A DNA stretch of 64,000 bases from Phialocephala subalpina (lineage: Eukaryota; Ascomycota; Leotiomycetes; Helotiales; Mollisiaceae), in assembly GCA_900073065.1 (NCBI GenBank), contig FJOG01000002.1, positions 2,728,354-2,792,353 on the forward strand, given 5' to 3'. This document shows positions 29,001 to 32,995 of the stretch, one piece after another. How positions within the stretch are numbered: position 1 is the first letter of the stretch; the number at the start of each line of letters is the position of its first letter. Under the pieces are notes generated by a model. The model searched no databases. It was not told the origin of the DNA and saw only the letters and a program-made list of their open reading frames with translations. Position numbers and translations under genes: made by a program.

Positions 29001-32000
29001 ATGCTGAAAGGGGTCGCTGGCGAGTCTGCTGCGGTAGTCTTGGGCTTGTTTGAGACTGTTCGACCCATGAAGACCTCGAGGAACGCCGAGCGTGCATCGT
29101 TACTCAGTCGTTCGTCTGGATTGTTGAAGACAGAAAGGAGAACTCGAACGACCTCGGAGTTCAGTAGTTCAGCACTTGTGACACTCTCCAAGACATCGCC
29201 ATCGAAGTAAGAAGCAAGTGTGTTAAACAGATCAATGCCATTGCCCTTAGCTTGACCAAGATAATGTGCCTCAATCTCCGAAGCAAGGACCTGAAGACTG
29301 GTCAAGATCTTTGTTGCCTTCTTCTTCATGTTCTTGCTGTTCTTTTCTGTCTCATGGACATCCAGAAAATTCTTGGCTCGTTGAGCAATGAGCTGCTTCA
29401 TACTGGAGGTATCATGTGGTGTCCGATGTTGTGGCCCATCCAAAGACATCGTGGATCCTCTTGAACTTGCTGGTGATGGACTGACGTCGTCTGGGACATC
29501 ATCCTGCTCGTTCTCATCCTCATTCTCGTCATCTGAGGAATCGTCATCATCGTCACCAGGTTCTCCACGATCGACCTTCTCGGAGATTTTCTTGGTACCA
29601 TTAGCCTCGGTGGAATCTGCCGCTTCAATGACCAGGGAGTCTTTCGAGGTGGAAGAACCGGCATCTGAAGTTACTGCCAATTTGGAAACCTCGGCAATCA
29701 CACCCTCACGGTAGAACTGGTAACGATAGATGTCGTCAAGGCGGTCCAAAAGCAGCTCAGCGGCCTGAAGTGCATAATTGACAAGGCTTGGATGGTCCTG
29801 CTGTGAGAGTATTGCCGCCAAAAAAGAGGCATACGGAACGGACCGTAAAGCTTCCAGCAATATGTCCTTGTCGAGATTCGATAGCATCTTCAATTGAGCT
29901 GTCAACACCTTCTGACGAACGCTCAGATTGACAGTGCTGGAGAAGGCATCCGTCAATGTTGGGAACAGGATGATGGCGAAACGCTTAACTTCGTCCTTGC
30001 ATCCTTCCAGGAGCTCGAGGCGTTTCTCATTTGACGACTGCTTTCGAGAGCTAGAAGGGGGAGCTGCAGGTGGTGCAGATGCAGGATCAATATCCATAAT
30101 CTCATCCAAGGCCGGCTGAGATTCTCTGGGCAAACCAGGGAGGAGTTCACAAATGACATTCAAAGTCTCAATGACTTGCTCTCGAGGCCTATGGATCAAT
30201 GCTTGCATGATGACGACACTGTCCAGCTTCGATGCAAGATCCTCATCTGGGTTTGGAGGCGAGACACCGGTCAAAATCTGGTACAGCGTTTCGACCACAT
30301 TCATCTTGAAAAGTTCCGCTGATAGGCTTGCACTGGCTTTGGCCGTGAATGCTAGGACTCGTAGAAATTGGGTATGGATATTCGGCCCAATGAGATTTGT
30401 TGTTCCAGGCAGTAACAAACGAAGGATGGCTCTAAGCAGGTCCGTGCTAACAAGCTCTTCGAGTTTTTCGGGGTGATATCTGAAGCTTTCCACGATACGG
30501 GACACACAAAGGGAGCCCTGCTCTACGACCTTTTGATCGCTGGAGCTGAGCACATTGAGAAGGATCCCCATAACATCTCGAACCGTGTCAAATGAGTCTT
30601 CTGGGATGTTTCGGCAGCAGTTCGCAGCCGTAGTGACAGCGGTTCTCTGCGTACTTGTGGCGAAGAAGTCAAGGTAGGTCAGACAAGCGGTTAGTCCACC
30701 TTCGCGAACAATGGATGCGGGATATTCGACAGAGATCTTCTCTAAAGTCTGTACGTTGTTAGATAGTGCTTCCTTATAGGACAAAGGGAACTTACGCTGA
30801 GTGCTTGCTCGGCCAGATCAATGAAGTGGATCTCAAGGAGCTTCGCGCAAAGTATAGGAACGGCTCCTCCATACACTACATTCGCTGTGCTGGCAGGCAG
30901 TGCCTCCATAAGATTGGCAAGGCAACGGCAGGCAAGCAGCATAATCTCCTGACAAAATTTGTTAGTAATGGTAGACGATACAGGTCCAAAATGGTTCCAG
31001 GATGACAGTGTGCCATTAGTCGAGCCTAAGGCTCGAGTGATGGGCGGCCTCCTTTCGGATGTGGGCCTTTGTTTCTTGTGCTGGGCTAGGTGAGCAGGGC
31101 TTAGAGCAGCATAGTCACAGGGCTCGCAATAGAACTTCTTGGCATCCCTGGCCGTGTCGCGTGAATTGGCCTTGAGCTCCTTGTTCCTTTTAGGGGGTTT
31201 TCCGAGCCAATCTGCATGATTCGCCGCTTTTCTGGCACGTACTCTCACAGGACTCCGTTTCAGAGCTTTCTTAAAAGTACTTTTGTTGGATTCGTTCCTC
31301 TTGACGCGGTTCCTTTCGGCGAGTTCGGTGGCTTGAGCTGCCGGCTGCTCATCGGTGAAGTCATGGCTGCCAATGGGGCCTTCGCTGAAGGCGGGATGGG
31401 AGCATAGCCCGTCATATTCCAGAGTATCTCGAGGCCAGAGATGAGACATTCCGTAGTAGTCTTTTTTAACGGTGTACATAGCCCAGAAATCCCAAGACAA
31501 AGTAGCTTCAAGTGCAACAATCAAGACCTTGACTTTATGTTGTAAGATTGGGGGAGGAATAGGCATCCAACAAGTATTCCGTAGTGTGTAATCTAGTAGC
31601 TGACCTTCAAGGCCAACTCGAGGTACTGTGTATAGTGCAATCCGTGAAGCAACACCTTGAGAAAGTTCGGTTCTTGAGCCAATATAGGTTTGGAATCGAC
31701 AGCTTGGCTTCTCAGGTACTGACAGATGGACGGCCCATGGGCGTACAAGCTTTGAACGACGGTAGAGGGGAGATGGTGTAGGAGGTTGAAGAGTGTTGAA
31801 GATCGCAGCAGCAGCGACCAGAGACATCTGGTCCGGTGTCCAGGCAGGTACATCCAGCAGCTGGCCAATGCAGAAGGCAGTCCCATGATGAGGGGCTGAT
31901 GGTCGTCCATCTTGAGGGCAAGTGCTATCCGGCTGGAGAAAAAGGAAGGGGGAAGGGGGAAGGGGGAAGGGGGAAAATCTTACAGGGTTTTCTTCGCCAA

Positions 32001-32995
32001 AATCCGATGGCTGCATCAAAGCAACGAGTTCCTTGACGAAAGAATCTGGCGAGAAATGACCTGACAGGTTGTCTTCTGTGGACACAAGAAGGATCTCAGA
32101 CAGCTCTTGAAGGGCAATCAGCTGCACTGAAGGGTCATCCTTCTGCTTGAGGTTGACCAAGATCTCGCGCAATCTCTGGGAAACCCCTTGAATCATACCA
32201 CTCAATGCTCGTAATGTGCCCGAAAGACCCTGTGGGGGTCCTCCAGCCCCACCAAAGCCTCCAAAGGGATCTTGATCGTCATCGTCGTCGTCGTCTCGAC
32301 CATCGTAGTCTCGAGGTATTCTGTCATCCACCGGATCATCACTGCCATCATCGTCATCGACAGGTGGAGGCTTATCATCCAAACCGTGATCTAACGAATT
32401 GTCCCCATCCTTGTTACCAGCGATGGTCTTCTTTGCTCGGCGGTTGGAGCTTGGAGTCGATATGGAGGGATCTGTATTGATTGTCAGGTCTGTAGTAGAA
32501 ACTGCTCTAGGGAAATTTGACAGACCTTGGCCACCTTTCTTATTTCTAGATGACTTTCGTTTCGAAGTAGTTGATGTACTCGGTGGATCGTTGGAAGGAC
32601 CAGCAGAATCACTAAGAGATAGTCAGTACCAACAGATGTAGGACCGGGAGGAGATTCACATACCCAGGACTCGACATAACCGCAGGAGTCTTTCCTTTCT
32701 TTCGTCGAGATGAAGGTTGCGCTGCAGGTGCAGGAGGCTGTGGACGGGGAATCTCTGGCTCTGCTACCTTCTGCCGCTTAGGACGTCTCGACGATGAGGG
32801 CTTCGCAGACTCAGGCTCAGGTGCTGGGCTGGTATCTCGTGGAGGTGCTTTACGCTTTCTCGATGGTGCCGGGGTTGGATTTGGGGCAGGCGCAGAAGTT
32901 GACAGAGCACTCGTAGACGCGGTATTGGATGTGGACTCCGACGAGCTGGCTAGTTGTCTCGCCGCCGCCCTTGTGATTCTGTTGGTTGGAGGCAT
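26018..32995 (-). CDS. UFD4: UFD4/TRIP12-type HECT E3 ubiquitin ligase
   Basis: Eight exons: 32995-32664, 32611-32526, 32471-31984, 30948-30796, 30748-28209, 28084-26469, 26415-26266, 26214-26018. They sum to whole codons (1,853 residues). UFD4 is the HECT ligase of the ubiquitin-fusion-degradation pathway. The N-terminus is basic and Ser/Pro rich, followed by an acidic run (DDDDGSDDPVDD). The ARM-repeat region has SGMIQGVSQRLREILVNLKQ, EIMLLACRCLANLMEALPAS, NVVYGGAVPILCAKLLEIHF and DLAEQALSTLEKISVEYPAS; an acidic linker and a WWE-like/TRIP12 middle follow. The C-terminal HECT domain has FEEVGTGLGPTLEFYSTVSK, LFPAPMSEEQ, and the catalytic cysteine in PSVMTCVNYLKLPDYTS. All introns are GT-AG with lengths of 47-124 nt, except intron 3 (30949-31983), which carries its own reading frame (separate entry). 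Confidence 0.93.
30949..31983 (-). mobile_element. Open, in-frame spliceosomal intron encoding a GIY-YIG-like nuclease
   Basis: Intron 3 of UFD4 is 1,035 nt (345 codons exactly) and has no stop in frame with both flanking exons. Its ends are canonical: GTAAGA directly after ...GEENP, and ACTAACAAATTTTGTCAG before EIMLLACR. Residues about 80-205 of the intron frame resemble fungal GIY-YIG nucleases: QTYIGSRTELSQGVASRIAL (YIG and the conserved Arg), CWMPIPPP, KVLIVALEATLSWDFWAMYT (LEA with the likely catalytic Glu, residue 159), then YYGMSHLWPRDTLEYDGLCS and HPAFSEG. A very basic tail (KRNESNKSTFKKALKRSPVR) ends in a zinc-finger-like C-x2-C-x8-H-x3-H (YCEPCDYAALSPAHLAQH, residues 285-302). A clear GIY half is not seen; WAVHLSV may be its counterpart. 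The family match is from memory and needs a profile search. See finding 1. Confidence 0.65.
31946..31973. repeat. Four perfect copies of a 7-mer (AAGGGGG)
   Basis: On the transcribed strand this is a CCCCCTT tract about 10 nt inside the 5' splice site of UFD4 intron 3, encoding Pro/Phe/Ser-rich text in the intron frame. A pyrimidine tract this close to a donor, rather than an acceptor, is odd. Confidence 0.9.

Follow-up and report, generated by a model that had tools for sequence, protein, structure and literature searches.

The window analysed here, a stretch of 64,000 nucleotides from the genome of the fungus Phialocephala subalpina, harbors on its minus strand a gene for a UFD4 ligase that is interrupted by a long intron with an open reading frame. 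This intron (30949..31983, 1,035 nt, phase 0) is preceded by an exon (31984..32611) whose 3' end reads ...GEENP, and is followed by an exon (30796..30948) whose first letters are EIMLLACRCLANL, all on the minus strand. It begins with the donor GTAAGA, ends with the acceptor TTTTGTCAG and contains the branch-site-like hexamer ACTAAC (30961..30966, minus strand), and the next intron of the gene (30795-30749) spans 47 nt. The long open frame of the host matches the Pfam model of the TRIP12 N-terminal part, and the joined exons align to human TRIP12 with a gap-free junction and a 4-residue gap just upstream of it. Frame 0 of the intron runs through 345 codons without a stop and is included in a 626-codon open frame spanning both exons, and the remaining two frames hold 8 and 14 stops. 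Among 2,000 copies of the intron generated under a first-order Markov model, none was stop-free in one frame. An earlier note on this DNA had named UFD4 as the host, had described the length, the donor, the ACTAAC, the CAG acceptor and the passage of 345 stop-free codons through both exons, and had held this openness to exceed chance; all of these points were borne out.

The translated intron frame was searched as a protein query against the genome (68,147,902 bases in 119 contigs) and recovered itself and five other loci. Five other family proteins, used as queries, each led to the identical seven loci, with a locus in a tricalbin-like gene added, although one of the five reached the UFD4 locus only at E 0.039. 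The family accordingly consists of at least seven loci, seven being a lower bound because the search scores the best candidates only. Weak extra matches on contigs C115, C38 and C43 (with one query) and C46 (with another) had E values of 0.03-0.42 and lay for the most part over the finger or linker, and no free-standing copy of the family was found in protein searches of the same genome. At the DNA level, the UFD4 intron recovered itself alone in its own genome, and the intron of the carbamoyl-phosphate synthase (CPS) gene recovered itself together with 68 nt of the GPI1 intron. Relatives in viral contigs and prokaryote genomes amounted to pattern matches, of which none was confirmed.

All seven loci are situated in the sense orientation inside introns of 830-2,248 nt of conserved genes, the flanks being identified as clathrin, Gpi1, ATP synthase alpha, a DEAD helicase, a CPSase, an SMP/C2 protein and the TRIP12-like ligase. 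Three copies retain an uninterrupted frame, counted from stop to stop: that of the clathrin heavy chain gene (C51:1682456; intron of 2,027 nt, phase 1, donor GTAAGA) with 390 codons, that of the ATP synthase alpha gene ATP1 (C34:1322840; 2,067 nt, phase 1, donor GTTCGT) with 409 codons, and that of a DED1-like helicase gene (C70:157092; 2,248 nt, phase 1, donor GTGTGT) with 443 codons. One frame change each is found in the copies of GPI1 (C73:295578; 2,217 nt, phase 0, donor GTAAGT) and of the CPS large chain gene (C51:1258225; 1,931 nt, phase 0, donor GTATGT), and the copy in the tricalbin-like SMP/C2 gene (C51:2653476; 830 nt, phase 0, donor GTGAGT) is truncated. The phases of the seven introns were assigned by eye. 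The search for similar introns in other genes that the earlier note had proposed as a check thus yielded six relatives, each of them intron-resident and in sense. The one-off capture of a nuclease gene fragment, which had been named as the dull alternative, is contradicted, because seven of seven loci share this residence and orientation in conserved genes.

The borders of the inserts were picked as GT..AG pairs that restore the host protein, and such predicted splice sites were obtained for all seven introns. The joined flanks were compared with solved structures of clathrin, ATP synthase alpha, DDX3X and CPS1, and the junction was gap-free in four of four. For GPI1, whose joined peptide had no match in the PDB, the Pfam Gpi1 model matched across the junction with 121.6 bits, and in the tricalbin-like peptide the SMP model covers residues 142-283, with the junction after residue 190. 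Upstream of the acceptor, CTAAC or CTAAT occurs in six of the seven introns and CTGAC in the tricalbin one, as judged by eye. In the clathrin, ATP1 and CPS genes, six introns from the neighbourhood measure 53-142 nt (one of the CPS gene having been cut 3 nt differently from the CPS join), compared with 830-2,248 nt for the family introns. No group I or group II intron was matched in the seven loci by Rfam at E values up to 1, and for lack of any Rfam group I match the loci were not classed with the GIY-YIG-bearing group I introns of mitochondria or phages. The atypical donor GTTCGT of ATP1 is counted against a reading of the family as homing introns.

The family protein displays a core of fixed order, W-x-V-Y followed by (Y/C)-(I/V/C)-G-S-G-T, then G-x3-R and later a Glu, after which comes a basic linker that leads to C2H2 fingers, one to three in number as counted by eye. 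GIY-YIG nucleases are characterized by the motif order V-Y ... YIG ... R ... E. This order (GIY, YIG, Arg, Glu) is found in the six copies other than UFD4, in which V-Y, G-S-G-T and R are present in six of six and the Glu in all five that keep the region; the Y of YIG is present in five of the six, ATP1 having C. The Pfam model PF01541 had no match in six family members, and GIY-YIG was called in the family neither by the Pfam, PHROGs and NCBIfam libraries nor by a profile search of the PDB, the PHROGs and NCBIfam searches giving nothing meaningful. Comparison by hhalign with six T4 domains gave no convincing match, and that with 19 I-TevI-like domains (19 of 30 loci, those excluded being mostly duplicates and partial matches) gave a score of 22.3 and a P of 0.0027, at a stated probability of only 11%; the best of 100 column-shuffled controls scored 17.2. 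In this placement V-Y lies near GIY, and IYIGSGT falls upon VYVGSA. The label GIY-YIG-like has been chosen because the hhalign match is weak and the libraries do not recognize the domain; it rests on the motif order and the profile match rather than on Pfam.

An alternative is that the family is a C2H2 DNA-binding protein, not a nuclease, whose residence in introns would serve some regulatory end. The fingers are indeed the sole domains recognized (in Pfam, those of the clathrin and ATP1 copies score over the cut-off), and GIY-YIG goes unrecognized by the profile libraries; however, the conserved order V-Y ... IGSGT ... R ... E is that of GIY-YIG, the profile match exceeds its shuffled controls, and no function unites the host genes, so that this alternative appears improbable beside a GIY-YIG-like protein with fingers. 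For the ten pairs of reading frames that can be formed from five copies, pN (0.33-0.53) was below pS (0.68-0.84, near saturation) in every case, as would be expected for protein-coding sequence under constraint. A separate ATG is located 4-6 codons after an in-frame stop in the clathrin, GPI1, CPS and ATP1 copies; inside these four introns 7-12 further ATGs precede the start of the reading frame, a circumstance counted against the homing-intron reading. The only PF01541 match in the genome (C14:162658-162798) lies outside the intron family and is presumably the SLX1 resolvase, which is our guess.

Judged by its alignment with these relatives, the UFD4 intron is a decayed copy whose family residues are spread over three frames, and not one intact nuclease frame as had been supposed. 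A profile built from the six other copies matched UFD4 frame 0 at E 1.9e-39, so much of that frame is inherited, and the match is confined to two stretches of the minus strand, approximately codons 54-115 (31639..31824) and 134-303 (31075..31584). The first of them contains WAVH (31737-31726) in place of W-x-V-Y, then YIGSRT (31686-31669) and the Arg; the second contains LEAT (31512-31501), the basic linker and the first part of a C2H2 finger. Nineteen family positions that belong between the Arg motif and a conserved C-W are read in frame 1 (31572..31628, minus strand), with a TAG inside them at 31595-31593, and this block scored 33.2, whereas none of 1,000 shuffled introns exceeded 25.3. Twelve residues forming the end of the C-terminal finger are read in frame 2 (31043..31078, minus strand) with a score of 18.2 (95% of 1,000 controls were below 12.5, and their maximum was 19.6), so that this block is by itself within chance but is collinear with the family. 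Frame 2 then arrives at what was putatively the stop codon of the ancestral gene (31016..31018, minus strand), 22 codons ahead of the acceptor.

Of the motif residues, the YIG, Arg and Glu listed by the earlier note do occur, but the first motif is AVH, against (G/A/S)-V-Y in the six other copies, the Tyr having become His, and the IGSGT of the family is now IGSRT. The finger pattern C-x2-C-x8-H-x3-H exists in the letters, whereas the family spacing, taken by eye from the other copies, is C-x2-C-x12-H-x4-5-H, and the last His of UFD4 now lies in another frame. The Pfam profile check of the 345 residues yielded no GIY-YIG match, and a structure prediction of the frame alone had a pLDDT of 33.8, too low for a fold search. 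Given its broken frames, the TAG inside the family reading and the loss of the first Tyr, the copy holds no intact endonuclease. Frameshift-aware alignment did not decide the question of frames, since two of three such alignments (with the clathrin and ATP1 proteins) kept frame 0 with gaps and the third, with the DED1 protein, preferred a frameshift with a stop; the decision was based on the scan against shuffled introns.

The openness of frame 0 can be accounted for without present use, because it consists mostly of inherited coding sequence together with 114 other codons that happen to be stop-free. These 114 codons form three stretches without family homology, for which the chance of being stop-free is p = 0.012, with limits that were set post hoc, after the alignment had been viewed. 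It had been proposed that the frame still works, either through intron retention as a ligase-nuclease fusion or as an exon-fused nuclease of the kind found in mitochondrial group I introns, and the 345 codons open through both exons and the failure of any of the 2,000 model introns to remain open would fit such use. Opposed to it are the scatter of family residues over three frames, the TAG, the exchanges of Tyr for His and of GSRT for GSGT, the broken finger, the value of p outside the family blocks and the 5-16 stops that the frame of the upstream exon contains in each of the six other copies, four of which have their own ATG. These stops show that fusion to the exon does not characterize the family, and continued use of the UFD4 frame is regarded as extremely improbable; the reading of a decayed copy is retained.

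Outside the reading frame, DNA similarity among the introns is highest between CPS and GPI1, whose 5' parts are 70-83% alike over 47-115 nt, beginning 39 nt behind the GPI1 donor. The heptamer TTTTGGA is located 16-28 nt after the stop in five of six copies examined, GPI1 being the exception, and occurs twice near the 3' end of the tricalbin intron; in UFD4 it stands at 30985..30991 (minus strand), 24 nt after the ancestral stop. Its background in the window is 19 occurrences per 128,000 nt, both strands counted. A hairpin adjoins the ancestral stop of UFD4 (31020..31036, minus strand) and has counterparts in the copies of clathrin, DED1 and CPS; by eye, one pair of its stem is changed on both sides relative to the clathrin and CPS stems. 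Folding covered six copies, tricalbin being left out, and windows as stable as the stop hairpin numbered 3/197 in clathrin, 2/219 in DED1, 4/188 in CPS and 11/98 in UFD4, the corresponding windows of ATP1 (46/201) and GPI1 (104/216) being unremarkable. The stop-codon hairpin possibly acts as a 3'-end or translation signal for RNA without poly(A). With the hairpin and TTTTGGA beside 31018-31016, the ancestral gene therefore most likely ended there, and frame 0 runs beyond its end.

A further signal is the palindrome ATCGTGGNNCACGAT, which in three copies, those of clathrin, GPI1 and CPS, lies over the start codon. It is located at intron nucleotide 612 in clathrin, at 527, 797 and 1996 in GPI1 and at 472 and 1805 in CPS, which gives one extra copy in CPS and two in GPI1, and the introns of ATP1, DED1, tricalbin and UFD4 lack it. 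The 17-mer with GG has six perfect matches genome-wide, four of them in family introns, compared with one match of a control pattern; the other two (C112:1180862-1180878 and C112:1189637-1189653) have no family protein near them within the 3-kb loci searched. As RNA, the start-codon palindromes are not unusually stable (38/198, 23/217 and 49/189; ATP1, 123/202). They could be an operator for self-regulation, which is a guess.

These shared parts bear on the main rival explanation, according to which the nuclease-like gene alone was mobile and entered short introns that already existed, the intron having been its shelter rather than its cargo. The seven insertion sites have no evident common sequence and the DNA similarity between introns stops short of the splice sites, two observations that are counted against homing introns and the second of which also agrees with the insertion of a gene into older introns; several host genes, moreover, have other short introns nearby. 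The resemblance of the CPS and GPI1 5' parts, on the other hand, extends beyond the gene, as do the TTTTGGA and the hairpins after the stop that are common to copies, although the outermost tens of bases could still be older. Mobility of the gene alone is accordingly held to be unlikely, though less so than the other alternatives weighed here.

We consider it probable that the UFD4 intron belongs, as a degenerate copy, to a family of spliceosomal introns of homing origin, each carrying a GIY-YIG-like gene with C2H2 fingers. The seven related loci, along with their common non-coding signals, three uninterrupted frames and protein constraint, are established at the level of sequence, and they suggest that such introns once spread through DNA cleavage, because the six relatives of the UFD4 copy also reside in introns and in the same orientation. 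The idea of a mobile nuclear spliceosomal intron carrying a nuclease, put forward in the earlier note, thus survives as an account of origin but not of the UFD4 copy itself, which is degenerate. For the family we infer nuclease activity, homing, loss after fixation and splicing in vivo. The proposed cycle is drawn by analogy from group I introns and from the introns of mirusviruses discussed below. It would start in a cell holding intron-bearing and intron-free alleles, in which a nuclease made within the intron would cut the intron-free exon, and repair templated by the other allele would copy the intron in. The conserved gene would tolerate the intron because the spliceosome would remove the insert from the mRNA. 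Once fixed, copies would lose their target, the nuclease gene would decay and the intron would shrink; the fingers may guide target choice, which is a guess. The coexistence of uninterrupted, frame-broken and shortened copies agrees with such a cycle of invasion and decay. To the fullest form of this reading, a selfish family of cellular nuclear homing introns whose finger-guided GIY-YIG-type nuclease would have invaded fungal housekeeping exons and then decayed, with control elements of its own at start and stop, we give an even chance. The stages assigned within it, UFD4 and tricalbin being late and clathrin, ATP1 and DED1 uninterrupted, could equally well prove right or wrong.

Introners are short and are not known to carry a nuclease gene. 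The present family resembles them in being spliceosomal introns that would spread as mobile DNA, and differs in comprising seven introns that have diverged and hold a gene or the remains of one; introners are also named in a report on mirusviruses (PMC12768974). That report, published in 2025, described 'spliceosomal homing introns' (shintrons), and its authors state that an association of endonucleases with spliceosomal introns had been unobserved until then. The family is best read as a cellular counterpart of these shintrons, with UFD4 as a degenerate member. Both are GT-AG introns without a group I or II signature that have conserved genes as hosts; the shintrons hold an endonuclease-type gene, GIY-YIG included (PMC12768974), and the family introns a putative one. 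Shintron-type endonucleases were taken here to be HNH, GIY-YIG, VSR-like and PD-(D/E)XK, and the present introns have GT-AG borders in protein genes and no group I or II structure. The mirusvirus shintrons, according to the same report, are viral and mostly in virion genes, whereas the family described here is housed in a nuclear genome, in housekeeping genes of a cellular organism; it also has C2H2 fingers, its nuclease type is less certain and its UFD4 copy is decayed. The GIY-YIG endonucleases encoded in group I introns (I-TevI of phage T4 and fungal mitochondrial ones; PMC7487136) share the order V-Y ... YIG ... R ... E, and by analogy intron residence and the proposed homing; a zinc finger in I-TevI is indicated by the title of a reference in PMC7487136. 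The hosts of those endonucleases are self-splicing, in contrast with the family introns and their lack of any Rfam group I or II match, and similarity of sequence between the family and I-TevI-like domains is weak.

The origin of new spliceosomal introns is a long-standing open question, and the family, if the homing reading is true, would be a source of them in eukaryotic genes. A family of seven loci in a fungal nucleus would extend endonuclease-bearing spliceosomal introns to cellular genomes, and the interest rests on these seven members, little of it on the UFD4 frame alone. No cellular nuclear case was seen in the titles and abstract beginnings among the matches listed from open-licence papers, which is not proof of absence. 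Because such genomes can be grown and crossed, and the family would present uninterrupted and decayed stages side by side, homing of spliceosomal introns would become directly testable. As a separate observation, in ATP1 (L011:3188-5496) the gene-bearing intron is followed by an exon of 11 nt and two further short introns, and this crowded conserved place possibly preserves, speculatively, traces of earlier intron invasions.
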